This document shows positions 2,525 through 20,855 of a stretch of DNA of 64,000 nt, in pieces. Source of the stretch: an uncultured Campylobacterales bacterium. Lineage in GTDB: Bacteria; Campylobacterota; Campylobacteria; Campylobacterales; Arcobacteraceae. Position 1 is the stretch's first letter. Every line of letters starts with the position of its first letter. The position numbers and the translations under genes are program-made. Where the stretch lies: NCBI GenBank assembly GCA_947494995.1, contig CANLWY010000002.1:1-64000 (forward strand), in the 5' to 3' direction. The notes beneath the pieces were generated by a model. That model had not been told where the DNA came from. It searched no databases and worked only from the letters and a program-made list of their open reading frames with translations.

Positions 2525-4724
2525 TTGCAACCTTCATACAGGAGGGTTGTCTTTAAATAGAAGAGAAAAGAGCTCTCAATCTATTCTTACAAAAAACGCA
2601 AATGAGATAGAGATTGTATTTTGTAAAGATGATACCTTAGATGATTTTGAAGCTGCATTAAGTGAAGTAAGTGGTAGTAGCTCTTCTTCTTTTTATAAAT
2701 TAAAGAAAAAAATATCCTCTTCAATCCTTAGTATTGTATCAGTTATAATTATCATGTTCGCACTTTTATCATCTTCTTTATATGAAGATGTATTTAAAAA
2801 AATCCTTTTTGAGTCTCCTTTAGCGTGGGAAGTTAGTGATTCTATTTCTATGCTTTTTGTATTGCTTTTCTTTTTTGGACTTGTGATGATGCCTTCAATT
2901 CTTGAAGGTGAGCGTTCACAGTTAAAGAATGTATTAGAGTCTTGGTTTAACAAAGATGCAAGAAGAAGAAAAAGACTTATTTTAGCTTTTAAAGAGTTAG
3001 ATAAGAAGTGTCAAATCAAGATTTATAATATTGATTTATTGGAAGATGAACACTGGATGTGGAAACTAGTTGTTCCAACAGTAATAAAACATTTTATAGA
3101 TATAGATTTTTTTATTAGAAATGATCAGAAAAGAGTTATATTAAAAAGATTAGAAAAGCTAGATGTATTAGGAATAAATATTACTAATGAAATAGATAAA
3201 AAGCCTAAAGCTAGTGTAGAGATACTTCTTAGTGAAAAAGAGGCTTCTTTATACTCTTTAATGCAGTTAAGTTCTACTTATATTGTAGGGAAGAGTCTTG
3301 ATAAGCAGTTTGTTTCTTTAGAACTTTTTGAATATTGCGGTAGAAGCTTTTTTAGTGACAAAAAAGATAGTAGTAAAAGTCTTATTTCAGGTTTTCAAAA
3401 CTTTATAAATAGATGTTTTGATGATTTCTATTTTTTAAAACAAGAAAAATCTGCACAGGTCTATTTTACACCTATAGTAGAGAATAAAAAACTTGAAGAT
3501 GAGAGAAGAAGATTATCATATTTTTTAAGAAACCATATTGAAGAGTGCTTGGAATATTTTGATAATCCAATTTCATTATTGATTTTATATTATTATGTAA
3601 AAGATATTGTTTTAGATGAAAAAAGAATGATAGCTATTTTAGAGAAGTTAATATCATCAATAAAGAAAAAACAACAATATGCACTAATAGATGAGTTTTG
3701 GTTTAGTATAACTGGGGAGATGTTTGATTCAGAAGATATAGAAAACTTTGAATTGACAAATAACTCTTTATATAGAAAACTAAGTGTATCTAGTCTAAAT
3801 GAACTGATGTTCTTATTTGAAAGAAATGGATATTTTGAACAGGCTTTATTATTAGCTAAATATCTATATGAAATAAACCCTCATAAGTATTCTGTTGATA
3901 TTTGTTCTTTATATGAAAGAAGTGGTCAGTTTGATAAAGCCTTCAAATCACTTCCTTTAGAGTTTAAAATAGGAAAGAGTGAATATACAAAACCAAAAGA
4001 TATAGAAGTAAGATATCTTCAAAGAAAGTCTTGGATAGTTGTAAGTCAACGAAGGCAAGAAGATAAACAAGAAGGTTTAGACTCTCTGGAAAAACTAAAA
4101 GAGATACTTTTCTCTCATACAGAAGATAATGAACCTTTATGGTTATGGCATTACTACAATATTAAAGCAAATTATTGTGAATGGAATGAAGATTATGATG
4201 AAGCTATAAAAAACTATAAAAAATGTCTAGCTATTCCTGCACTTGGTGCTTTTGAATATGGTGGAACCTTTGTAAATATGTCTATAGCATTAAGATTTAA
4301 GTACTTAACAAAGGGTTTACAAAATATTGATACTATAAACGACTCTATTTCTATAGGAAATACGGGAGTGATGTTAAAAGAGTCTGTAGGTGATAGGGAT
4401 GAGATGCCTGTAGTATTACATAATCAAGCCTTGAATATTTTATACAAAGTTTTAAATTTTGAAGATGAAAAGTTAGTTAAAAGTGCAGTTGAATTGACAA
4501 ATAGAGGAATTGAGATTTTAGATTCAACAGCTTCTATTAAAAGACTTGGAATTATTCTTTGTGAAAATATAATTGTGAAATCTATTTTAAAAGAAGATGT
4601 GAGTTCTTTAAAACTAAGACTAGAAGAGCATTGGCCTTTAATGGATGATTATGAAAAAGAACAAATCTGTATGATTTATGATAAATTTGTTTTGAAAGCT
4701 ATATGTAATCCTTTAAATATATAA
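2514..4724 (+). CDS. Large membrane-anchored TPR-like protein of unknown function
   Basis: The product is 736 residues. The N-terminal 55 residues are polar with a serine-rich stretch. Two membrane segments follow, about residues 65-88 (ILSIVSVIIIMFALLSSS) and 105-128 (SMLFVLLFFFGLVMM). The rest is a long helical, probably cytoplasmic region. Its middle and C-terminal parts show TPR-like spacing, for example FEQALLLAKYLYEINPHKY, FDKAFKSLP and YDEAIKNYKKCLAIP. No enzyme motif is seen. The start overlaps the upstream GGCT-like stop by 11 nt, suggesting coupled translation. A scaffold or assembly role is plausible from the TPRs, but the family is not one I recognise. Confidence 0.7.
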   Translation: MNCNCNLHTGGLSLNRREKSSQSILTKNANEIEIVFCKDDTLDDFEAALSEVSGSSSSSFYKLKKKISSSILSIVSVIIIMFALLSSSLYEDVFKKILFESPLAWEVSDSISMLFVLLFFFGLVMMPSILEGERSQLKNVLESWFNKDARRRKRLILAFKELDKKCQIKIYNIDLLEDEHWMWKLVVPTVIKHFIDIDFFIRNDQKRVILKRLEKLDVLGINITNEIDKKPKASVEILLSEKEASLYSLMQLSSTYIVGKSLDKQFVSLELFEYCGRSFFSDKKDSSKSLISGFQNFINRCFDDFYFLKQEKSAQVYFTPIVENKKLEDERRRLSYFLRNHIEECLEYFDNPISLLILYYYVKDIVLDEKRMIAILEKLISSIKKKQQYALIDEFWFSITGEMFDSEDIENFELTNNSLYRKLSVSSLNELMFLFERNGYFEQALLLAKYLYEINPHKYSVDICSLYERSGQFDKAFKSLPLEFKIGKSEYTKPKDIEVRYLQRKSWIVVSQRRQEDKQEGLDSLEKLKEILFSHTEDNEPLWLWHYYNIKANYCEWNEDYDEAIKNYKKCLAIPALGAFEYGGTFVNMSIALRFKYLTKGLQNIDTINDSISIGNTGVMLKESVGDRDEMPVVLHNQALNILYKVLNFEDEKLVKSAVELTNRGIEILDSTASIKRLGIILCENIIVKSILKEDVSSLKLRLEEHWPLMDDYEKEQICMIYDKFVLKAICNPLNI

Positions 4725-4766
4725 TACGCAATTATGTTATTAATTTAATGCTAAGAGGAAAAGTAA

Positions 4767-6869
4767 ATGAATTATATGAAAGATACTATAAATTTAAATA
4801 CTGGGACAGTTGAAGAAAAAAGAGCTCAAATTAAAGAGTACTTTCTTCAAACGTATGAATTAGATGAAAAATTATTTGATTTATTAAAGGATAGAAAAGA
4901 TTTATATAAGCAACCAAATAGATTAAGACATCCACTTATTTTTTATTATGGGCATACAGCTACATTTTTTATGAATAAGCTAAATGTATCAAATATAGTA
5001 ACAACTAGAATAAATAAAACATATGAATCAATATTTGCAATTGGCGTTGATGAGATGTCTTGGGATGATTTAAATGGCGAACATTATACTTGGCCAACAT
5101 ATGAAGAGACTAAAGCTTATAGGGATGAGGTAAAAGCTTTAGTTCTTGATTTAATAGATAATATGGAGTTTACTTTACCAATAAACTGGGAATCTCCTAT
5201 GTGGATTATTCTTATGGGTATTGAACATGAGAATATTCATATAGAGACTTCATCTGTATTGCTAAGAGAACTTAATATTAAGCATTTAAAAGATGATGAA
5301 ATATTTGAGTACAATAATGAAGCCTGTCATAACTATCCTCAAAATGAACTATTAGATGTAGAGGGTGGAGAAGTTTTATTAGAAAAAGATCATAACAATC
5401 CAATCTATTATGGATGGGATAATGAATTTGCATTTCACAAAGCGCAAATCAAAGATTTTAAAGCAAGTAAATATTTAGTATCAAATGGTGAGTTTTTAGA
5501 GTTTGTAAATGATGATGGATATTCTAAGCTACATTATTTTACTGAAGATGGATTAAAGTGGTTGGATTTTACTCAAGCTAAGCACCCAACATTTTGGGTG
5601 AAAGATAAAGATAGATTTTATTTAAGAGAGATAAATAGAATAGTACCACTTCCTTTAAACTATCCAGTGGATATAAATGTATTTGAAGCAGAAGCATTTT
5701 GTAAATACAAATCAGAAAAACTAGGATTTGAAGTAAGACTTCCTAGTGAAGATGAGTATTATAGATTAAATGATTATGTAAAAGCACAAAGTTGTGAAGC
5801 AAATATAGGACTTAAATATTTTAATCAAACGCCAGTAGATAAGTATGTATTTGAAAGTAAGAGTGGAGACTTTTATGATGTTATAGGAAATGTATGGCAA
5901 TGGAGTATAACTCCAACATATCCTTTTGATGGATTTAAAACGCATCCAGCATATGATGACTTTACAACTCCAACTTTTGATGATAGACATGCACTTATAA
6001 AAGGTGGATCTTTTATTTCTTTAGGAAATGAGATCTTAAGAGAAGCAAGATATGCTTTTAGAAAGCATTTCTTCCAACATGCAGGATTTAGATACGTGAA
6101 ATCAGACAATGATTATAGAACAAAATTAAACGACAATGTATATGAAACAGACGAACAAATCTCTCAGTATTGTGAATTTCATTATGGGCAAGAGAATTTT
6201 GGAGTTAAGAATTTTCCTAAAAATTCAGTAGATTTATTAAAGCCACATTTTGAAGGTATTAAGACTAAAAAAGCTTTAGATTTAGGATGTTCAGTAGGAC
6301 GAAGTACTTTTGAATTAGGGAAAATATTTGATGAGGTGTTAGGAATTGATTTTTCTGCAAACTTTATTAATGTTGGGGTTAAACTTAAAAAATACGATAG
6401 CCTTACTTTTAAAGTTGCAAGTGAAGGTGATTTATTTGATGAGAAGACAGTATCTTTAAGAGATTTTGATTTAGAAGAAACACAAAATAAAGTTTCATTT
6501 ATGCAAGGGGATGCTTGTAATTTAAAAGATATATACACAGGGTATGATTTAATCTTCTGCTCGAACCTAATAGATAGATTATATTATCCTCAAAAATTCT
6601 TAGATGATATTCCAAATAGAGTAAATGAAGGTGGTCTTTTAGTTCTTCTTAGTCCATATACTTGGCTTGAAGATTATACTCCAAAAGAGAACTGGCTTGG
6701 AGGTTATCTAAAAGATAATGTAGAAGTTAAAACTTTAGATACCTTAAAAGATAATTTAAAAGATAAATATGAATTAGTAGAAACTATTAATGTACCTTTT
6801 GTTATCAAAGAAACTGCAAGAAAACATCAGTATACAGTTTCACAAATGAGTATTTGGAAGAAAAAGTAA
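4767..6869 (+). CDS. ovoA: OvoA: 5-histidylcysteine sulfoxide synthase with 4-mercaptohistidine N1-methyltransferase domain
   Basis: The 700-residue protein carries the full OvoA architecture. An N-terminal DinB-like iron-binding domain has the HxxxHxE facial-triad motif at H154, H158 and E160 (EHENIHIE). A formylglycine-generating-enzyme-like sulfoxide synthase core spans about 200-450 (GNVWQWS, GGSFISLG, HAGFRYV). A C-terminal SAM methyltransferase domain spans about 490-700 (LDLGCSVGRSTFELG, motif I). OvoA uses O2 and Fe(II) to join cysteine to C5 of histidine and methylates the imidazole on the way to the antioxidant ovothiol A. The later C-S lyase step (OvoB) is not encoded next to it. 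The gene stands alone with its own AAGAGGAAAAG ribosome binding site. Confidence 0.92.
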   Translation: MNYMKDTINLNTGTVEEKRAQIKEYFLQTYELDEKLFDLLKDRKDLYKQPNRLRHPLIFYYGHTATFFMNKLNVSNIVTTRINKTYESIFAIGVDEMSWDDLNGEHYTWPTYEETKAYRDEVKALVLDLIDNMEFTLPINWESPMWIILMGIEHENIHIETSSVLLRELNIKHLKDDEIFEYNNEACHNYPQNELLDVEGGEVLLEKDHNNPIYYGWDNEFAFHKAQIKDFKASKYLVSNGEFLEFVNDDGYSKLHYFTEDGLKWLDFTQAKHPTFWVKDKDRFYLREINRIVPLPLNYPVDINVFEAEAFCKYKSEKLGFEVRLPSEDEYYRLNDYVKAQSCEANIGLKYFNQTPVDKYVFESKSGDFYDVIGNVWQWSITPTYPFDGFKTHPAYDDFTTPTFDDRHALIKGGSFISLGNEILREARYAFRKHFFQHAGFRYVKSDNDYRTKLNDNVYETDEQISQYCEFHYGQENFGVKNFPKNSVDLLKPHFEGIKTKKALDLGCSVGRSTFELGKIFDEVLGIDFSANFINVGVKLKKYDSLTFKVASEGDLFDEKTVSLRDFDLEETQNKVSFMQGDACNLKDIYTGYDLIFCSNLIDRLYYPQKFLDDIPNRVNEGGLLVLLSPYTWLEDYTPKENWLGGYLKDNVEVKTLDTLKDNLKDKYELVETINVPFVIKETARKHQYTVSQMSIWKKK

Positions 6870-11437: not shown

Positions 11438-12586
11438 TTGAAAATAATACATTTTAGTGATACACACTTGGGATACAACGACTTAGATATTTTAGATGAA
11501 AACAATATAAATCAAAGAGAAGCAGATTTTTATGATGCTTTCTCACAAGTTATAAATCAAATAGAAAAAATACAACCAGATTATATAATCCATACGGGGG
11601 ATTTGTTTCATAGAAGCAGTCCTAGTAATAGAGCTATTACCTTTGCTCTAAAAGAGTTTAAAAGAATAAACGATATGAATATTCCATGTATTATGATTGC
11701 AGGGAATCACTCAACTCCTAGAACTAATCTAAGTTCACCAATACTGAAAATATTTGAAGATTTTGAGAATATATATGTTTCATATGAACAAAAATACAAA
11801 AAAATTGAGTTTGATGATATAGCTTTTCATACACTTCCTCATATGAATGATGAAACAAAAGCAGAAGAACAAATCAATCTATGTGAAGAAAACATAGAAA
11901 AAGACAAAAAAAATATCATGATGATGCACTGTTCTGTTGGTGCTTGGTATTTGATGCAAGAGTTTGGAGAGTGGGTATATCCTACGCATAAAGAGTATAT
12001 CTTTGAGTCTATGGATTATGTAGCACTTGGGCATTGGCATGGTTTTGGTGCAGTATCTGTAAAAGGAACAAAAGAAAAATATCCAAATGCTTTTTATAGT
12101 GGAAGTACTGAGAGAACATCTTTAAATGATAAAAGAAATGAAAAGTGTTTTGTAGAAGTTACAATCGACGATACGCTAAGAGTTGAACCAAAATATATAA
12201 ATATAAGACCAATCATCACAAAAGAGATAAACTGTGAGGATTATGAAACATCTTTAGAAACTTTAGATTCAAGTGATGTAAAAGATGCTATAGTAGAAGT
12301 AAGACTAATAAACCTAACATCGCTTCAATCAATAGATATACAAACAAGTGATATAAAAGCACTCTTTAAAGAAGCTATGCATGTATCTGTAAAAAGAGAG
12401 TTCAAAAAAAGCTCAACAGAATCTACAATAGATGATATAGAAGCTGTATCTTTAGAAGAGTATTTCCTAGAGCATATAAAAGAGGATAGTATAAACACAC
12501 AAGATACTAAAGAGTATGAGAGATTAGAGCTAAAAGTAAAAGAGCTGTTTTCTAAGTATGAGGAGGTAGCTGATGATACTATCTAA
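11438..12586 (+). CDS. sbcD: SbcD/Mre11-type DNA repair nuclease subunit
   Basis: The 382-residue calcineurin-like phosphoesterase shows all metal motifs: FSDTHLG (D8, H10), HTGDLFHR, AGNHS, MMHCSVG and LGHWHG. Together with SbcC it forms the Mre11-Rad50 complex that cuts hairpins and blocked DNA ends. The start is TTG at 11438 with AAAAGGAATT upstream; no better ATG exists before the first motif. The 3' end overlaps sbcC by 14 nt. The C-terminal part (about 260-382) is acidic and helical, as expected for the region that contacts the SbcC coiled coil. Confidence 0.92.
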   Translation: MKIIHFSDTHLGYNDLDILDENNINQREADFYDAFSQVINQIEKIQPDYIIHTGDLFHRSSPSNRAITFALKEFKRINDMNIPCIMIAGNHSTPRTNLSSPILKIFEDFENIYVSYEQKYKKIEFDDIAFHTLPHMNDETKAEEQINLCEENIEKDKKNIMMMHCSVGAWYLMQEFGEWVYPTHKEYIFESMDYVALGHWHGFGAVSVKGTKEKYPNAFYSGSTERTSLNDKRNEKCFVEVTIDDTLRVEPKYINIRPIITKEINCEDYETSLETLDSSDVKDAIVEVRLINLTSLQSIDIQTSDIKALFKEAMHVSVKREFKKSSTESTIDDIEAVSLEEYFLEHIKEDSINTQDTKEYERLELKVKELFSKYEEVADDTI

Positions 12587-14942
12587 ACTACAACTAGAAA
12601 ACTTCAAAAGATACACTTCTTATACTATACTGTTTGAAGATGGGCTTGTAGGAATAATAGGAAAAAATGGTAGTGGAAAATCAACTATCTTTGAAGCAAT
12701 ACTTTTTGCCCTATATGGAGAACTACAAAACAAAGGCTACAAAGAGATAATTAGAAACTCAAATGCCACTACAAAAGATCCTGTAGTTGTAGAGCTTGAG
12801 TTTGAGTTTGAAAGTATTGATTATAAAATCATAAGAGAGTTTAGAGGAAAGGCATTAAGTGCAAATGCAAAGTTCTATAAAAATGGTGAACTTATAACTA
12901 CAGGAGCTAAAGAGGTTACGAGTTCTGTTATAAAACTAACACATATGAACAAAGAAGCATTTTTATCTACGCTATTTGCTTCACAAAAAGAGCTAACTAC
13001 ACTAAGCTCTAAAAAGCCAGAAGATAGAAAGAAGATGATAAGACGTCTTCTAGGCCTAGAAAAAATAGACTTCATAGAAAAAGAGCTAATAGAAAAGAGC
13101 AGGGAACTCAAACGTGAGATAGCAGCATTTGCCGAAGTTCTTTTAAGCAATGAAGAAGTAAAACTAAAACAAGAACAGATAAAACAGAGTAATGATACAA
13201 AACAAACTCTTCAAAAAGATGTAGAAGTAAAATCAAAAGAGTTAGATAGTACAAAACTACTTAACCTAGATATAAAAAAGCAGCTGCAAGAGTATATAAA
13301 AACAAAAGAATTAAAACAAAAAGCTTTTAATACCCTTGAACTACTACAAAACACTATAAACTCTCATAAACAAAATTATACTAAACAAACCCAAGAGCTA
13401 GACTCCCTAGCAGTAAAACAAAAAGAGCTAAGAGGACTAGAGTCAGTAAAGACAGAATACACTTCTTTACATAATAGTATAAAAGAACAAGAGAAGTTAA
13501 AAGAGTATGCTCTAAAAAAAGAGGGACTTAAAAAAGAGCAAGTAGTATTAAGAGAACAGTATACAAAATCAAAAAATGAAATAGCCCAGTTTGAAGAACA
13601 GATAAAAGGCTATGATGAGTATATACAAAAAGAGAAAGAACTAAGTAGTTCTATATCAGTACTTGATGAAGAGATAAAAGCGTATATAAGTAAAGAACAC
13701 ACTCTAAACAAAGAGATATCAGGAGAAGAGAAACTAATCCAAGATATAAGCTCTAAAATAGAGACTATACAAAACCTAGGAAGAGAATCTGCGTGTCCTA
13801 CATGTACAAGACCACTACTTGAAGAGTATGACAAAGTACTAGATTCTTTACACAGTATCATACAAGAGAGTAAATCAAACAAACTAGAAAAAGCAACTAT
13901 AGAGTTAAAAGAAGTACAAAAAAATAAAACAGCCAAAGAAGAGAGAAGAAACACTTTAGGAAAAGAACAACTAGAAGTATCAAAAAGAATAAACCTAATA
14001 GAAAATCAAAAAAGAGATATGCTAAAAGAGAAAGAGCATTTTGAAAAGATATCAGATAAGGGAATGGAAAACAAAAAAGCCCTAGAAGAGCTAGAACAAT
14101 ACTCATACGATACAAAAGAACACGAAGCCTTAAACAATAGGTTCCAAGAATTAAAAAGCAAATACGAATATGTACTAAGCCTAGAGACAATGCTAAGACG
14201 TGTAGATATACTAAAAGAAGAACTAGAAGCAACACAGAAAAACATAAAAGAGAATGAGCTTAAATACCATGATAAAGAACTAGAGTACAAACAAATAGCC
14301 TATGACAAAGATAAACACGAAGCAAAACAAAAAGAGTCTGAGACGAACGCTAAGGATATAGAGACTAAAACAAGCTTTTTAAATGAACAAAAGGTGAAAA
14401 TAGCAAAATGTGAAGGTGAAATCAAAACAATCCAAGAATCACTAGATAACAACACAAAACAACTAGCCAAAGTACAGACCAAAAAAGATGACCTACTAGA
14501 CTATGACAAAATCAAAGTAAGCCTGAGTGAATTTAAAACAAAACTAAACTCAAAAATAGCACCAAGAATCTCAAGCTTTGCCTCTGATATGTATAGCCGT
14601 ATCACAAAAGGAAAATACCAACACATAGAAGTATCAAACGACTTTGACTTCTATATCTATGATGAAGGTGTCAAATACCCAATAGATAGATTTAGTGGTG
14701 GAGAAATAGACCTAGCGAATTTGGTTCTAAGAATCGCTATATCTAAAACCCTGCGAGAGTTAAGTGGAGCAAGTAGTATAGGCTTCTTGGCTTTTGATGA
14801 GGTATTTGGAAGTCAAGATGAAGCAAGACGTATGGAGATACTAGAAGCTTTTCATACTATCAAAGAACAGTATCGGCAGATATTTTTGATTAGCCATGAG
14901 ATGGAGATTAAAGAGATGTTTGAAAAAACTGTGGAGTTGTAG
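12573..14942 (+). CDS. sbcC: SbcC/Rad50-type ATPase with zinc hook
   Basis: The 789-residue SMC-like ATPase has Walker A GKNGSGKST near the N-terminus. Long coiled coils flank a zinc-hook CPTC at C408-C411. The C-terminal half carries the signature DRFSGGEIDLANLVLRIA and Walker B IGFLAFDEVFGSQD. It partners SbcD, encoded just upstream with overlapping ends. Leucine codons here are noticeably rich in CTA, and AAC/ACA codons are frequent, in contrast to TTA-dominated neighbours. This hints at a different codon history, though strong purine skew in coiled-coil genes could also contribute. Confidence 0.93.
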   Translation: MILSKLQLENFKRYTSYTILFEDGLVGIIGKNGSGKSTIFEAILFALYGELQNKGYKEIIRNSNATTKDPVVVELEFEFESIDYKIIREFRGKALSANAKFYKNGELITTGAKEVTSSVIKLTHMNKEAFLSTLFASQKELTTLSSKKPEDRKKMIRRLLGLEKIDFIEKELIEKSRELKREIAAFAEVLLSNEEVKLKQEQIKQSNDTKQTLQKDVEVKSKELDSTKLLNLDIKKQLQEYIKTKELKQKAFNTLELLQNTINSHKQNYTKQTQELDSLAVKQKELRGLESVKTEYTSLHNSIKEQEKLKEYALKKEGLKKEQVVLREQYTKSKNEIAQFEEQIKGYDEYIQKEKELSSSISVLDEEIKAYISKEHTLNKEISGEEKLIQDISSKIETIQNLGRESACPTCTRPLLEEYDKVLDSLHSIIQESKSNKLEKATIELKEVQKNKTAKEERRNTLGKEQLEVSKRINLIENQKRDMLKEKEHFEKISDKGMENKKALEELEQYSYDTKEHEALNNRFQELKSKYEYVLSLETMLRRVDILKEELEATQKNIKENELKYHDKELEYKQIAYDKDKHEAKQKESETNAKDIETKTSFLNEQKVKIAKCEGEIKTIQESLDNNTKQLAKVQTKKDDLLDYDKIKVSLSEFKTKLNSKIAPRISSFASDMYSRITKGKYQHIEVSNDFDFYIYDEGVKYPIDRFSGGEIDLANLVLRIAISKTLRELSGASSIGFLAFDEVFGSQDEARRMEILEAFHTIKEQYRQIFLISHEMEIKEMFEKTVEL

Positions 14943-15043
14943 TATTTAGATAAAACTTGATGATAAATAGATAGTTTTAGAGTGAAGGCAAAATTAATTA
15001 TTATAAAATACAAAATAAAAATAGTTAGATAATAGGAAAATTA

Positions 15044-18000
15044 ATGATATTAAAAGAATTTATTCAAAAAATATACAATGAAAAAACAGATTATAATTAC
15101 CCTAGTCAAGTAATGGATCAATCAAATTTATTAGAAACTGTCTCCTCTGATATATACACAGATCCCAAAAGGTTTATTTATGAACTTTTACAAAACGCAG
15201 ATGATTCATCAATAAGAAATTCTAAAAATCAAGTTAGTATTAAAATTATCAATGATTATCTAGTTTTTGCCCATAATGGAAAAATATTTTCTAATAGAGA
15301 TATTGAAGGATTGTGTTCTGTAAGTAATGGAACAAAAAAAGATGATAAAACAAAAACAGGATACAAAGGTATAGGCTTCAAATCAGTTTTTGGACAGTCT
15401 GAAGAAGTGACTATTTATACTAATAATGAATATTTTAGATTTGATAAAAAACATAAAATTAAGTGGAAAACAAAGTGGGGTAATACACAAGAGGAATGGG
15501 AAAAGGAAAATAAAAGATTATTTATATCTCCTTGGCAACTTATACCTATTTATACAGAGAAAGACTTTTTAAGTCATGAGATAAATATTTTTTTAGAAGA
15601 AAAAAATTTTACAGTTGCTACTATTTTAAAAATTAAAAGTATAGATAATTTAAAAAAAGAATTAAATGATTTAATTCAAAATATTAATATGTTTATTTTT
15701 TTAAGAAATATAAATCAAATAAATATTTTAATTGATGAAGAAACAATAATAGAAATTGAACATATATCTGACTGTGAAATTATATTAAAGAAAAACTCTA
15801 TAATTAAGTCATCTTGGTTAATAAAAAATATAAAACTTGAAGTTGATAGTGAAATAAAACAGGAAATTCAATTTGAAAAGAATATTCCTGATAAATTAAA
15901 AGAATCCGATCAAATAGAATTGACATTATGTGCTAAAAAAGACAAACAAGGAATAGTAAAAGTTATAGAAAATGAAAGTTTATTATATTCTTATCTGCCT
16001 ACCAGTACTAGGATAAATTTACCTATTTTAGTTAATGCAACTTTTATTATGGGAGCGAATAGAGAATCTTTACATACAGATTCATTATGGAATAAATGGT
16101 TGTTTTCTAATATTTCTCATAAGTTGATAGAATGGATATCAGAATTAGTTCTTACAGAATATTCTTTTCAAGCATATAGATTATTTCCCCAAAAATTAAA
16201 TTCTAATTACTCTTTTAATTTTGATTATAATAATGGTATTGATAAAGCAATCGAAACTGTACCATTACTTCTTTCGATAGAACAAAAGCTATTAAAAATT
16301 AAAGATTCTATTTATGATGAAGTTTCTTTTTCAAATCAACATTTTATATCTCAATCTTTAGTTAAAGATTTTGTGCTTGAAAAGAAAAATAAAGAAAAAA
16401 ATATTGATTATAATCCATTCATTCAAAAAACAAGTTATGAGCATATTTTTCATGAAATTGGCTTGATGGAATTTAAATGGGAAGACATATCATCATTTTT
16501 AAATTATCGAGATTTTGTAGAAATACATAACGTTAGTGATAATATTGAGTTAATAAAATTTTTGAAGGAGTCTGAACGTCCAGGAAGAATCAAGGACAAA
16601 ACTTTTAAAAATTGGTCTTTTATAATGGATCACCAAGAACAGTTAAAGATGCCTATAGATATTCTTTTACCTTTAGTAGATGATGAAGATTGGGAAAAAG
16701 AAACAGAACTATCTTATTTACATAATGACTTAAAAGATTTTATATCGTTAAATGGTGAGTATAAAAAATGGTTAGAAGAACTTGGTATAAAAGAAAAAAC
16801 TGAAATAAGTTATATAGAAACTAATATTTTACCTCATATTGAAGACTATATTACTACAAACAGTGCAATTAAACAAACAAAAGACTTTTATGAATTATTT
16901 ATTCAAGAAAAACTTACAGAAGATATATTTAATAAATTATCAAATATGAAAGTATTAACTACAAAAGGTAATAAAATTCCAATTTCTGATTGCTATTTTT
17001 CAAATTGTTTTAATCCAGAGGTGGAATTAGAAACACTATTAGATAGAGATATTTTTCTAAATGAAAATTATTTATTTACAAATGAAGATAGAGATATTAT
17101 CAAAGTGTTTTTTAATAAATTAGGTGTAAAGCAGAATATTTTATCTATTAAACCTGAAGAAAGAATTACTAAATTAGTATTAAATAATAAGTATGAAATT
17201 AATAAAGAATATTTTAATAATATAGATCAGTACACTGGTTATTCTCATTTACCAATAACAAGTTATTCTGATATTATGAGTATTGAGTATATACTATGTA
17301 CTGTTGATTATAACTTATCAAAATTGTATTGGAATTATATTGTTACAAGTGATTATTTTGCAGAAATTAATAAAAAAGCTATTGGTTATTGGGGATATAG
17401 TACTCAAAATGGGCAGGTTCATGGAAAATCAATAGAAAACTATATTAGTTGGCTAGTAAGAAATATAGATTGTATCCCTACTAAATTAAAAAAATGTTTT
17501 AAATCAACAGAAGTATTTTTAAACAATGATAGTATTTCTAAAATTGGAGATGGATATTTACCAATTGTTGATATTGAAAATTTAGATGATCCATGGAAAT
17601 CTTTCTTCAATTTTAAAACATTTTTGGAGTTTGATGATTATATAGAGGCCTTTTCTTTGATTATGAAAGATGTTCCTTCTGATAAAAAACTAAAAAAAGA
17701 TAACTTAGATAAAGTTATGAATATCTATGAATATTTTATAGATAGTTGTTTAAACTGGGATGAGTCTAAAATAAAATTAATTAAAGATACATTTAATTCA
17801 TTATTAATTCCTGATTCGAATTTAAATGTTAGATTATTAAATGAACTAAAATATACAAATGAAGAAGATACTAGTATTTTTTCAGATGACTATAAGTTTA
17901 TGTATTTTAATAAAGAAAACCAATCTCACCCAAATTTAAAAAGTTTTTTAGAAATTATAGAAATTGAAGTACTAACAGATAAAGATTTTCAAATTGAAAA

Positions 18001-19870
18001 AATAGGTGAAAAAAGAGAAAGTAGTTTAAAAAAAGAATTATTAACTATATTACCATATTTAAATAATTGGTTATTTCATCAAAATAATTTATTTGATGTA
18101 GAAAAACAAGATGTATTAAGAATACAAATAGAAGAAATAGAAATATTTGAGTTTGAAAGGTTAGAAACACCAAATAAATCTATAAAAATTTATTTTGAAG
18201 ATCATATTTTAAATATTGCGAAAACTTGGAAGTCTAATAGTGTTCAAATAGAACTATTTACTAAATTATCAAATTACTTAAATATAAAAGGACATGAAGA
18301 TAAATTAAGATTTTTATTAAATGCTGATGATAAAGATGAGATTATAGAATATTTTACAAGTGAAAAGATTGAATTACCAACTGTTATTATTCCAGATAAA
18401 AGTCATGAAGCTATTTCTCAAGAAGAGGAAATAGCTACTTTAGGTATAACAAAAAAAGATTATGCAGATATTACGAAAATTGCAAATAATTATTCTCATG
18501 AATCTGAGTCATCAATAGAAAAAAAGAAATATATTTTGAAATTATTAAAGCGATCTAAAAAAAATGTGTTAGAGCATTTAAATAGTTTAGATGAATATAA
18601 TTGTGAAAATGTAGATACTAGTGCTTTAACTGTATTGTCAGGAATAAAGAAAAATGGGAATGATATTTTTATAATTCCTCGTCCTTCAGATGATGGTCAA
18701 GTGATACTTCACTATGACTCAGAATTTGCTACGTTAGAGTATGCTGATTCAGAGTTGTGGTATGAGGATGAAGATTCAGCACCTAAAAAATTAACTTTTG
18801 GAAAAGTACTTAGAGAAGCAAAAATAAATAGAATACCAATAATAAAAACTAATAAAAATATTACTGATATTATTTATGATTATGGAAATGAAGATATTAT
18901 ATATAAGCCTATTTTACCATCATCTTTTGATATAGCAAAAATAATGGCTTCACTTGCCAATACAAATGGGGGTTATTTAATAATTGGATGCTCAAAAGAA
19001 GAAGGAATAATAGGATTAAGTAGTGAATTTAATATTGATGAATTAACTAGGAAGTCTATTGAATATTCAAGTTATTTTGAACAGTTTAAAATTGAAGAAA
19101 AAATAATAGATGGCAAAACTTTGATTGTTATAAAAATTGATAAATCTGATGAAACTATCTTTATCGAAGGTAAGAAATATATTCGTTATGGTTCAATAAT
19201 AATTGAAGAATTGACAAACAATGATAAACCATTAATTATTACAGAAGGAAAGACAGATTGGAAACACATAAAAAAAGCCTTAGAACGATTTAAAAATAAT
19301 GGAAGCTATCTAGATTTAGATATTCAGTTTCTAGAGTATGAAGAGATGAATATGGGAGATGGCGAATTGGATAGAATGGTTCAAACTTACTGTAAAACGG
19401 AACAGTCTAAAAAACACATTTTTATATTTGACAGAGATAATAGTACTTTTCTTAAGAAATATGCTAAGGAGAGATTTAATAATCATGGAAACAATGTATA
19501 CTCTTTTTGTATTCCAAAGATTAGTGATGAGCTAGACAGAATTTGTATAGAGTTTTATTATAAAGAGGAAGACTTAACAACCGAGGATGAAAATGGCAGA
19601 AAAATATTTATTGGTAAAGATTTTCTTTCTAATGGAAACAGTTTATGTGGTAAGTACATAACTGAAAAAAGAAAAGCTAATAAACTTGATATTTTAGATA
19701 GAGATAAGAAGGTTTATTTAAGAGAAGATATAGAGTGGGAGAACAATATTGCTCTTTCAAAAAATGATTTTACTAATAATATTATAAATGAAGTAGAAAA
19801 TTTTGATAGTTTTGATATTGACTATTTTAAATTAATATTTGATGTGACTATGGATATTATTAATAATTAA
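15044..19870 (+). CDS. Giant GHKL-ATPase (sacsin-like) / AlbA_2 / TOPRIM-like protein, putative antiviral defence
   Basis: This single 1608-residue protein has recognisable ends. The N-terminus is a sacsin/NO VEIN-type Hsp90-like ATPase: N-box ELLQNADDSS (E47, N51, D53), FAHNGKIFS around 75-83, and the glycine loop TGYKGIGFKSVF (105-116). Residues about 130-1140 have no recognised domain. Around 1215-1275 is a block with IPRPSDDGQVILHYDSE and ELWYEDED, of a kind I associate with other large sacsin-type proteins. Around 1285-1375 is a Schlafen-type AlbA_2 domain (MASLANTNGGYLIIG). The end is TOPRIM-like: EGKTD (E1401) and IFDRDN (D1463, D1465). It has its own start after a 101-nt gap and is followed by a DUF2779 remnant and a toxin-antitoxin pair. 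The defence role is inferred from domains and context. Confidence 0.75.
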   Translation: MILKEFIQKIYNEKTDYNYPSQVMDQSNLLETVSSDIYTDPKRFIYELLQNADDSSIRNSKNQVSIKIINDYLVFAHNGKIFSNRDIEGLCSVSNGTKKDDKTKTGYKGIGFKSVFGQSEEVTIYTNNEYFRFDKKHKIKWKTKWGNTQEEWEKENKRLFISPWQLIPIYTEKDFLSHEINIFLEEKNFTVATILKIKSIDNLKKELNDLIQNINMFIFLRNINQINILIDEETIIEIEHISDCEIILKKNSIIKSSWLIKNIKLEVDSEIKQEIQFEKNIPDKLKESDQIELTLCAKKDKQGIVKVIENESLLYSYLPTSTRINLPILVNATFIMGANRESLHTDSLWNKWLFSNISHKLIEWISELVLTEYSFQAYRLFPQKLNSNYSFNFDYNNGIDKAIETVPLLLSIEQKLLKIKDSIYDEVSFSNQHFISQSLVKDFVLEKKNKEKNIDYNPFIQKTSYEHIFHEIGLMEFKWEDISSFLNYRDFVEIHNVSDNIELIKFLKESERPGRIKDKTFKNWSFIMDHQEQLKMPIDILLPLVDDEDWEKETELSYLHNDLKDFISLNGEYKKWLEELGIKEKTEISYIETNILPHIEDYITTNSAIKQTKDFYELFIQEKLTEDIFNKLSNMKVLTTKGNKIPISDCYFSNCFNPEVELETLLDRDIFLNENYLFTNEDRDIIKVFFNKLGVKQNILSIKPEERITKLVLNNKYEINKEYFNNIDQYTGYSHLPITSYSDIMSIEYILCTVDYNLSKLYWNYIVTSDYFAEINKKAIGYWGYSTQNGQVHGKSIENYISWLVRNIDCIPTKLKKCFKSTEVFLNNDSISKIGDGYLPIVDIENLDDPWKSFFNFKTFLEFDDYIEAFSLIMKDVPSDKKLKKDNLDKVMNIYEYFIDSCLNWDESKIKLIKDTFNSLLIPDSNLNVRLLNELKYTNEEDTSIFSDDYKFMYFNKENQSHPNLKSFLEIIEIEVLTDKDFQIEKIGEKRESSLKKELLTILPYLNNWLFHQNNLFDVEKQDVLRIQIEEIEIFEFERLETPNKSIKIYFEDHILNIAKTWKSNSVQIELFTKLSNYLNIKGHEDKLRFLLNADDKDEIIEYFTSEKIELPTVIIPDKSHEAISQEEEIATLGITKKDYADITKIANNYSHESESSIEKKKYILKLLKRSKKNVLEHLNSLDEYNCENVDTSALTVLSGIKKNGNDIFIIPRPSDDGQVILHYDSEFATLEYADSELWYEDEDSAPKKLTFGKVLREAKINRIPIIKTNKNITDIIYDYGNEDIIYKPILPSSFDIAKIMASLANTNGGYLIIGCSKEEGIIGLSSEFNIDELTRKSIEYSSYFEQFKIEEKIIDGKTLIVIKIDKSDETIFIEGKKYIRYGSIIIEELTNNDKPLIITEGKTDWKHIKKALERFKNNGSYLDLDIQFLEYEEMNMGDGELDRMVQTYCKTEQSKKHIFIFDRDNSTFLKKYAKERFNNHGNNVYSFCIPKISDELDRICIEFYYKEEDLTTEDENGRKIFIGKDFLSNGNSLCGKYITEKRKANKLDILDRDKKVYLREDIEWENNIALSKNDFTNNIINEVENFDSFDIDYFKLIFDVTMDIINN

Positions 19871-19882
19871 AAAAATAAAGGT

Positions 19883-20119
19883 GAAGTAGGGAACCTCTCT
19901 AAATCCCTCTACACAAAAGGCATACAATGCCCAAAATCCTACAAGGAACTAGATGGCGTACAAAATGGAAGCCAAGCTATGAATGCCTTTGCAAATATGC
20001 AAAATATGGAAGAGGGCAAAAAAGAAAAAATGAGACAATCACTTTTAAAGTATTGTGAACTTGATACTTTGGCGATGATTAGGATATTGGGGAAGTTGAA
20101 AAAAGAAGTTAATAATTAA
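19883..20119 (+). pseudogene. Internally deleted remnant of a DUF2779-family gene
   Basis: An open frame directly downstream of the giant ATPase stop, and in the same frame, reads NLSKSLYTKGIQCPK and then SYKELDGVQNGSQAMNAF, ending RQSLLKYCELDTLAMIRILG. The first block is the N-terminal signature of DUF2779 proteins, and the second is their C-terminal nuclease-like end (the CELDT motif). About 500 residues that normally lie between are missing. There is no start codon before the first block. This is a deletion scar: both ends of a gene of about 1.8 kb are retained and the middle is lost. The exact family length is from memory. Confidence 0.7.
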
Positions 20120-20198
20120 AAACATTACAAAATGAAATACTTTTAGTATGAATTCACTTTTTTAGATAATATTTCTATATATTAAAAAGGAAAAGTAT

Positions 20199-20246
20199 AT
20201 GAGTTCAATATTGACAAAAGTTAACTTATATGTTAACATTTTATGA
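20199..20246 (+). CDS. Possible 15-codon leader ORF coupled to the toxin gene
   Basis: An ATG at 20199 has a strong AAAAAGGAAAAG ribosome binding site 8 nt upstream. It encodes [15 protein letters not shown] and stops at TGA 20244-20246. The stop overlaps the toxin ATG as ATGA. The toxin itself has no visible Shine-Dalgarno, so its translation may depend on this leader. The paired GTTAAC operator sites lie inside the leader. It may instead be the stump of an older gene. Confidence 0.4.
   Translation: MSSILTKVNLYVNIL
20211..20239 (+). promoter_or_regulatory. Toxin-antitoxin promoter with paired GTTAAC operator
   Basis: TTGACA (20211-20216) is followed after 17 bp by TAACAT (20234-20239), a reasonable sigma-70-type promoter. 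Two GTTAAC sites (20220-20225 and 20232-20237), separated by ttatat, form a symmetric element covering the spacer and -10. This suits autorepression by the XRE antitoxin. If this promoter is used, the mRNA would start at about the toxin ATG, making it nearly leaderless. An upstream promoter near TATATT (about 20176) is the alternative and would include the leader ORF. Confidence 0.45.
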
Positions 20247-20587
20247 AAGAGATTCTATTTTATAAAACTAAACAAGGCAGAAGTCCTATTGATGAGTTTT
20301 TAAATTCTTTAAATGTAAAAGAAGTTCAAAAAGTTACTTGGGTTTTACAATTAATAGAAGAATCAAATTCTGTATCTACAAAATTTTATAAAAAATTAGT
20401 AAATACAAATGATATATTTGAAGTTCGTGTTCAGTATACAAATAATAGTTTTAGGTTTCTTGGGTTTGAACACAAAGGTAATTTTGTAATTTTAACAAAT
20501 GCTTTTAGAAAAAAAGATCAAAAGACATCAATAAAAGAGATAGCGTTAGCTCAAAGAAGAAAAAAGGAGTACTTAGAAAATGAGTGA
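20243..20587 (+). CDS. HigB/Gp49-like RelE-superfamily toxin
   Basis: The 114-residue basic protein fits the phage-derived Gp49-like (HigB-type) branch of RelE toxins. Matches are the opening [17 protein letters not shown], the core [33 protein letters not shown] and the tail [14 protein letters not shown]. Such toxins cleave ribosome-bound mRNA. The gene precedes its antitoxin (HigBA order) and overlaps it by 8 nt, giving coupled translation. It has no Shine-Dalgarno of its own. It closes the accessory island that begins after sbcC. Confidence 0.85.
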
Positions 20588-20855
20588 TCTACAAAAATAT
20601 ATAGAAAAAAGAAAAAAATCAGATAAAGAGTTTGCAGAAAATTTTGATAAAGGTTATGAAGAGTTTAAAATAGGGGAGATGTTAAAACAAGCAAGAGTTG
20701 ATACTGGTATGACGCAAGAAGATGTAGCTACAAAACTTCATACAAAAAAATCAGCAATATCAAGAATAGAAAATCACGCTCAAGATATGAAACTATCTAC
20801 ATTACAAAACTTTGTAAACATACTTGGAAAAGAATTAAAGATACAAATAGTTTAA
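20580..20855 (+). CDS. XRE-family HigA-like antitoxin
   Basis: The 91-residue protein contains an XRE helix-turn-helix at about residues 35-85: [20 protein letters not shown], then [19 protein letters not shown]. The N-terminal 30 residues are charged and probably bind the toxin. It starts inside the toxin gene (8-nt overlap). It is expected to neutralise the toxin and repress the operon through the paired GTTAAC sites upstream. Confidence 0.87.

Follow-up and report, generated by a model that had tools for sequence, protein, structure and literature searches.

The window analysed here is a stretch of 64,000 nucleotides at the start of a contig from an uncultured Campylobacterales bacterium of the family Arcobacteraceae. 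An uninterrupted open reading frame on its forward strand runs from an ATG at 15044 to a stop at 19870 and encodes a protein of 1608 amino acids. An open reading frame check of the window gave the same single frame and coordinates as an earlier reading made without database searches (the sequence-only reading). The gene starts 101 bases behind a pair of overlapping genes on the same strand (11438-14942) that we take, from their sequences, to be sbcD (11438-12586) and sbcC (12573-14942). It is followed on the forward strand by the relic of a DUF2779 gene (19892-20119) whose middle is missing. By eye, the relic is indeed what it had been called before: both termini of a DUF2779 protein are recognizable in it when it is read against the intact gene of a relative (L036:2790-4286). 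Next comes a toxin-antitoxin-like pair (20243-20855, forward strand), also named in the earlier reading, which family scans resolved into a Gp49/DUF891 gene (20243-20587) and an HTH_3 gene (20580-20855); a close relative of the former was seen by eye at L036:629-973. No Rfam RNA was found between 10400 and 21100 at an E-value of 0.1. Elsewhere in the window, positions 4767-6869 encode a 700-aa protein that presumably resembles OvoA, with an EgtB-like part and a methyltransferase.

Comparison with relatives shows sbcD and sbcC as the left border of a variable region. A match to sbcC at 1e-30 was obtained in 4 of the 16 genus genomes (the window's own and three of the 15 others), in a search that scored only part of the candidates in some genomes, and the set of genes behind sbcC differs in each of these four (window 11438-20855; L036, L037, L038). 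In G004 this place is occupied by an Old homologue (5.7e-80), a 269-aa protein with no family match, DUF2779, Bro-N and a Gp49 relative; G001 carries Ppl (1.9e-112) and MkoA (1.1e-187); and G014 carries SMEK, MComp1 and an LmuB-like ATPase (6.4e-76). No match to the 1608-aa protein was obtained in these three genomes. DUF2779 is intact in G004 and a relic in the window, and the Gp49 relative is common to both. On the right, the next gene was found in a single one of the 15 other genus genomes (G007), which gave no sbcC match. GC content is 0.228 in the core part of the large gene and 0.260 in its tail, against 0.322 in sbcC. We interpret the stretch behind sbcC as a site next to a housekeeping gene where defence genes vary between genomes; predicted defence genes at the same site in relatives support the defence locus suspected from the neighbouring genes.

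The whole gene (15044-19870) encodes, in order, a sacsin/TmtA core, a module named RPSD here, a Schlafen AlbA_2 domain and a TOPRIM domain. Residues 1-1130 (15044-18433, forward strand) form the core of the Tiamat protein TmtA, an ATPase followed by a long middle region that we propose to be a sensor or switch. Positions 1-1148 of the 1302 positions of the PADLOC model PDLC03972 match residues 1-1159 with an E-value of 3.4e-249, a figure in which the system-calling cut-offs of PADLOC play no part. Most of the roughly 1000 residues previously left unassigned are thus accounted for. The GHKL (Hsp90/sacsin) ATPase domain itself covers residues 38-240 (15155-15763, forward strand). It was recognized by Pfam (SACS, residues 38-230, E 4.2e-10, above the gathering score), by the sacsin-type ATP-binding domain of NCBIfam (8.7e-24) and by phmmer against the PDB (sacsin 5v47, 1.5e-4). 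The motifs pointed out earlier are in place, with E47, N51 and D53 in ELLQNADD and GYKGIGFKS at 106, and the GHKL residues E47, N51, D53, G106, G109 and G111 are identical in all three aligned rows, this protein included. A model of the core (residues 1-1160) built from 3 sequences is of low confidence (mean pLDDT 47); against the PDB it retrieved sacsin SR1 (Z 13.7 over 16-239) and Hsp90 (Z about 11 over 16-404), in agreement with the GHKL assignment.

The PDLC03972 match stops at model position 1148, leaving positions 1149-1302 unmatched in the 1608-aa protein, and a Pfam scan found no NOV_C in it. The two core relatives that we scanned, a protein encoded on a Hymenobacter plasmid (P0006, 563.9 bits with PDLC03972) and a protein from a viral contig that carries a phage terminase gene (L035, 1088.5 bits), both align over the core and end in NOV_C/DUF3883, so the end of the model would correspond to NOV_C. 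We take NOV_C to be the former DUF3883, consistent with the annotation of P0006. DUF3883 was termed "a novel REase domain" in the accessible text of a 2013 paper on HEPN domains (PMC3710099).

The place of NOV_C is taken by three other parts. The RPSD module, about 100 residues long (1165-1265; 18536-18838, forward strand), was delimited by alignment and by its similarity to proteins of two cyanobacterial plasmids, from Dolichospermum and Calothrix (52.4% and 51.2% identity over 84 residues), where it forms the C-terminal end of sacsin-type proteins. The one of these that was scanned (P0002) falls under a different TmtA model, PDLC03967. The AlbA_2 domain follows at residues 1281-1384 (18884-19195, forward strand), with NTNGGY at 1306 as noted earlier. 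Pfam SLFN_AlbA_2 matches at 1295-1384 (E 9.5e-9, 36.3 bits for a gathering score of 25.3), which upholds the AlbA_2 block of the sequence-only reading. The match begins only at profile position 15, and at position 19 in the other full-length homologue (G586). Aligned with the AlbA_2 domain of a Sulfuricurvum genome, which starts with ESVEFK, the corresponding stretch reads EDIIYK here and EDTAYE in G586; relative to the ExxEFK motif, E1283 is aligned and the second E and the F are replaced. The glutamates of motifs of this type are presumed to be catalytic in Schlafens. The active site at this end of the domain is presumably degenerate and mostly lost, and we therefore take AlbA_2 to serve in binding or coupling.

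The C-terminal residues 1385-1608 (19196-19867, forward strand) are predicted to form a TOPRIM nuclease of the retron I-C type. PADLOC RT-Toprim_I-C matches residues 1374-1607 with an E-value of 2.4e-29, the PADLOC retron matches starting at position 316 or 317 of 529 in the profile. TEGKTD at 1400 (E1401, D1405) and FDRD at 1462 (D1463, D1465) lie where they had been placed, and E1401, D1405, D1463, D1465, E1503 and K1573 are invariant in 8 aligned TOPRIM domains, this one included. A model of the tail (residues 1161-1608) from 8 aligned sequences, in which the Sulfuricurvum AlbA_2 row was trimmed to 32 residues, is of low confidence (mean pLDDT 44), as expected from so shallow an alignment. 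Only residues 1391-1490, which contain E1401, D1405 and the DxD motif, and a short C-terminal helix reach values of about 65-90; E1503 and K1573 therefore fall in an unreliable part of the model (below 50). Its best matches in the PDB are nevertheless to retron Eco2 (Z 10.5; 163 residues with an rmsd of 3.6, and 162 with 3.3), so that structure and profile agree on the TOPRIM end proposed from the motifs. The next rows, a PARIS chain that is probably AriB (Z 6.2) and OLD (Z 6.0), carry no weight, since unrelated rows score 5.8-5.9. At the sequence level, phmmer with the TOPRIM domain alone found no PDB chain at an E-value of 0.01, and the TOPRIM profile reached retron Eco2/Ec67 in the PDB at only 0.087. 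In Eco2 the TOPRIM site comprises E374/D460/D462, D378/S513/E515 and K562, and alanine mutants are reported to lose defence (PMC12405507). Six counterparts of these key residues are present here: the E1401-D1405 spacing equals that of E374-D378, the pairings of E515 with E1503 and of K562 with K1573 follow motif order, and C1501 occupies the position of S513.

The same kind of TOPRIM domain was found on other proteins: on a reverse transcriptase (L014), on an OLD-like ATPase (G250) and in five viral contigs at 33-37% identity, three of which Pfam confirmed as encoding AAA/ABC-type ATPases. Three P2-like contigs (L030, L031 and L033, about 2700-6700) carry an ABC ATPase-TOPRIM gene with the retron-type TOPRIM. 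In L030 Pfam identifies its neighbours as a phage replication gene A (GPA) on one side and a portal gene on the other, which is the location of old in phage P2; L031 and L033 resemble it by eye. In genome G532 (L026, 41-803) a gene with this kind of TOPRIM is interrupted by a frame change, which leaves two frames that overlap, and it adjoins, by eye, an MNT/HEPN-like pair. A Herpetosiphon RT-TOPRIM protein scored 375.7 bits with NCBIfam, under the retron cut-off of 450 bits. In a tree of 8 TOPRIM rows the reverse transcriptase-borne domain of L014 groups with two OLD-like ones (88/90, not starred) and the window row sits on a long branch; the topology is in line with a movement of the domain between partners.

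The full architecture is rare. Four of 104 genomes of the family gave a match, two full-length (the window's own and G586) and two to the GHKL part only. The G586 protein, from a genome that is 86% complete with 5% contamination, is 50% identical over residues 2-1606, keeps the GHKL and the E/D/DxD/E/K residues, gives matches to both Pfam domains and aligns over TOPRIM; it is the one other full-length member that we know of. On its account a chance reading frame or artefact was rejected, and the domains of the 1608-aa protein exceed chance. Directly behind it (L047, 5452-6474) lies a gene for a 340-aa protein without a Pfam family at cut-off, which could be a partner. Among 60 near relatives, four matched at 0.001: self and three AlbA_2 stretches. 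Across 398 genomes of the order eight matched at 1e-8, namely self, the TOPRIM part in two (G250 and G532) and the GHKL part in five; two candidates were scored per genome, so that this search may miss some, and the Sulfuricurvum genome (G420) and G586 are absent from its matches, either not drawn or missed. In a phylum sample of 397 genomes the TmtA model matched four at 1e-20, and the RPSD and TOPRIM profiles, built on few rows, matched two each (TOPRIM at 1e-10), in both cases only genomes already among their own rows. Eight records of the plasmid collection and three of the phage collection matched in part, none over 80% of the length, and the plasmid, phage and viral-contig searches returned no copy of the exact architecture. 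Viral contigs scanned with the 1608-aa protein alone gave no match, and 600 pattern matches to the RPSD module in viral contigs yielded no confirmed one. A search of genome contigs with the two-row alignment, which makes poor patterns, retrieved the Sulfuricurvum locus only. Patchy spread of this sort is usual for mobile defence genes.

Conservation is uneven along the protein. Between the window and G586, identity is 41.3% in the core, 77.2% in RPSD, 66.3% in AlbA_2 and 76.8% in TOPRIM; between G586 and Sulfuricurvum it is 53.3% in the core and 48.5% in RPSD. The G586 core is therefore closer to Sulfuricurvum than to the window, and the order is reversed in RPSD. In the RPSD tree the window and G586 form a pair (94/97, not starred) at a point where long branches meet, and constraining a different pair gave a p-AU of 0.044. 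The core tree favours the other grouping (77/76), and there the window-G586 pair is not rejected (p-AU 0.173). The pattern suggests that the tail domains may have been replaced together as one block; it could also have arisen from rapid evolution of the core in the window.

In Sulfuricurvum (G420 = L016) the parts are divided between genes. A 1294-aa protein, 41% identical, stops directly past the RPSD module, and the next gene, overlapping it by 4 bases, encodes AlbA_2 with a different tail (P0004) in which we identified an RHLFSH motif by eye. Ending 10 bases before the core gene is a gene encoding TPR and HEPN_LA2681 (1.9e-59). The locus (L010, 701-7174) appears to be a three-gene operon, TPR-HEPN_LA2681, TmtA core-RPSD and AlbA_2 with an R-x4-H tail, and is possibly a multi-gene relative of Tiamat. 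Neither Pfam (E 5) nor NCBIfam (0.01) detected a HEPN domain in the P0004 tail, TOPRIM was not found in this split version, and P0004 had no match in the plasmid collection.

The 1608-aa protein probably serves in phage defence and belongs to the Tiamat type. We consider it fairly probable that it represents a Tiamat variant whose effector has been exchanged, and in which an Hsp90-class sensor releases a TOPRIM nuclease that is probably an RNase, as part of an abortive defence. The Hsp90/sacsin-type ATPase and the long middle region would act as sensor and switch and keep the C-terminal nuclease inactive, until a cue induced by the phage alters the ATPase cycle or conformation and releases it. 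RPSD would couple the core to AlbA_2, which may present the substrate or link core and nuclease. The freed TOPRIM domain, presumably the end that cuts as first proposed, would cleave nucleic acid, most likely RNA, at a two-metal site formed by E1401, D1405, D1463, D1465, E1503 and K1573, and the infected cell would then stop translating and no longer support the growth of the phage. A caged nuclease under a sensor ATPase is the simplest reading. The isolated TOPRIM domain of Eco2 is reported to be toxic and an RNase, and not to be toxic within the full-length fusion (PMC12405507); with such a relative, an RNA target would be at least as likely as phage DNA.

The same protein might instead cut DNA, as OLD and Gabija do, attacking phage genomes or ends left by a host repair that the phage has blocked. 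We hold this distinctly less probable. The same TOPRIM kind does sit on OLD-like ABC ATPases in viral contigs and in G250, the tail model retrieves OLD rows (Z 6.0), and the gene lies 101 bases behind sbcC, a neighbour that could then matter together with sbcD. In both sequence and structure, however, the nearest relative is the TOPRIM of type I-C retrons, which is reported to act as an RNase when isolated (PMC12405507), and the place behind sbcC is common to unrelated defence genes, so that no functional link with sbcC is needed.

A working Schlafen-like nuclease in AlbA_2, cleaving tRNA or other RNA with TOPRIM in a secondary role, would fit the split Sulfuricurvum version, in which AlbA_2 is retained and no TOPRIM was found. 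We think this improbable, given the EDIIYK and EDTAYE stretches in place of ESVEFK, the late start of both Pfam matches and the standing of TOPRIM, with all six residues, among the best conserved parts (76.8%). About as improbable in our judgement is a protein without a defence role, serving the host in a chaperone-like capacity or in RNA metabolism: the relationship with Hsp90 and sacsin would suit it, but the distribution is patchy (full-length in 2 of 104 family genomes and, with two candidates scored per genome, in self alone of the 398 order genomes), the GC content of the gene is low, other defence genes occupy the site in relatives, and the matches are to TmtA and a retron effector.

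Returning to the Tiamat variant with a TOPRIM effector, whether Tiamat as a whole, rather than being one system, is a family in which Hsp90-class immune receptors are combined with exchangeable effectors seems to us evenly balanced. Its members would carry either NOV_C or an RPSD adaptor recruiting an effector borne by AlbA_2, encoded by the next gene in Sulfuricurvum (R-x4-H tail) or fused as AlbA_2-TOPRIM in the window. Should TOPRIM be the killer, the core would amount to a transferable sensor, and in other Tiamat proteins the killing would be expected to fall to the NOV_C end. As this TOPRIM kind is common to the Tiamat core, retrons and OLD-like ATPases, three unrelated sensors would drive one kind of nuclease, a single effector kind standing behind reverse transcriptases, ABC ATPases and an Hsp90-type ATPase.

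Several known systems share parts with this protein. Retrons of type I-C (Ec67/Eco2) have the same TOPRIM effector, by profile (2.4e-29), fold (Z 10.5) and key-residue counterparts, but theirs is fused to a reverse transcriptase; neither Pfam nor NCBIfam found a reverse transcriptase family here at an E-value of 1, and membership of the retrons was rejected for that reason. The OLD-like ABC ATPase-TOPRIM proteins of viral contigs, some of them P2-like, share the TOPRIM kind (33-37% identity) but have an ABC/AAA ATPase (by Pfam in L030, L031, L032 and P0008, by eye in L033 and L034), and the four scanned with Pfam showed no AlbA_2. The 1608-aa protein has a GHKL domain and no ABC/AAA family in Pfam or PADLOC at an E-value of 1, which led us to reject Gabija, PARIS and OLD. 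In the accessible text of Anantharaman et al. 2013, a Schlafen domain is joined to the MAE_18760 HEPN and an N-terminal domain is common to HEPN and TOPRIM effectors; no sacsin-AlbA_2-TOPRIM fusion appears among these toxins (PMC3710099). VcSduA, a Shedu protein of Vibrio, resembles the present protein in carrying a GHKL ATPase ahead of a nuclease, but that nuclease is a DUF4263 PD-(D/E)xK domain; Pfam found no DUF4263 here at an E-value of 1. VcSduA is reported to defend and to need both its ATPase and its nuclease sites, and its homologues have been called paraMORC3 (PMC12137116). In a literature search that covered few subscription papers, we recognized no description of a sacsin-AlbA_2-TOPRIM protein.

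The closest system is Tiamat, whose mechanism is stated to be unknown in the accessible text of two papers (PMC12926258, PMC10482375). The present protein shares with it the core (residues 1-1159, 3.4e-249), the single large gene and the GHKL motifs. The earlier proposal of an undescribed single-gene system consequently holds in part: the PADLOC scan returned a TmtA core and an RT-Toprim_I-C tail, so the core already has a name and a categorically new system was rejected, whereas we found no name for this tail on that core. Tiamat was reportedly first described by Millman et al. in 2022. A Tiamat core with an effector understood from its retron relative offers a direct test of the Tiamat mechanism. 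P0006 and L035 end in NOV_C/DUF3883 and the 1608-aa protein ends in RPSD-AlbA_2-TOPRIM; the core is the known part of this protein, and that tail on a TmtA core appears to be the new one.
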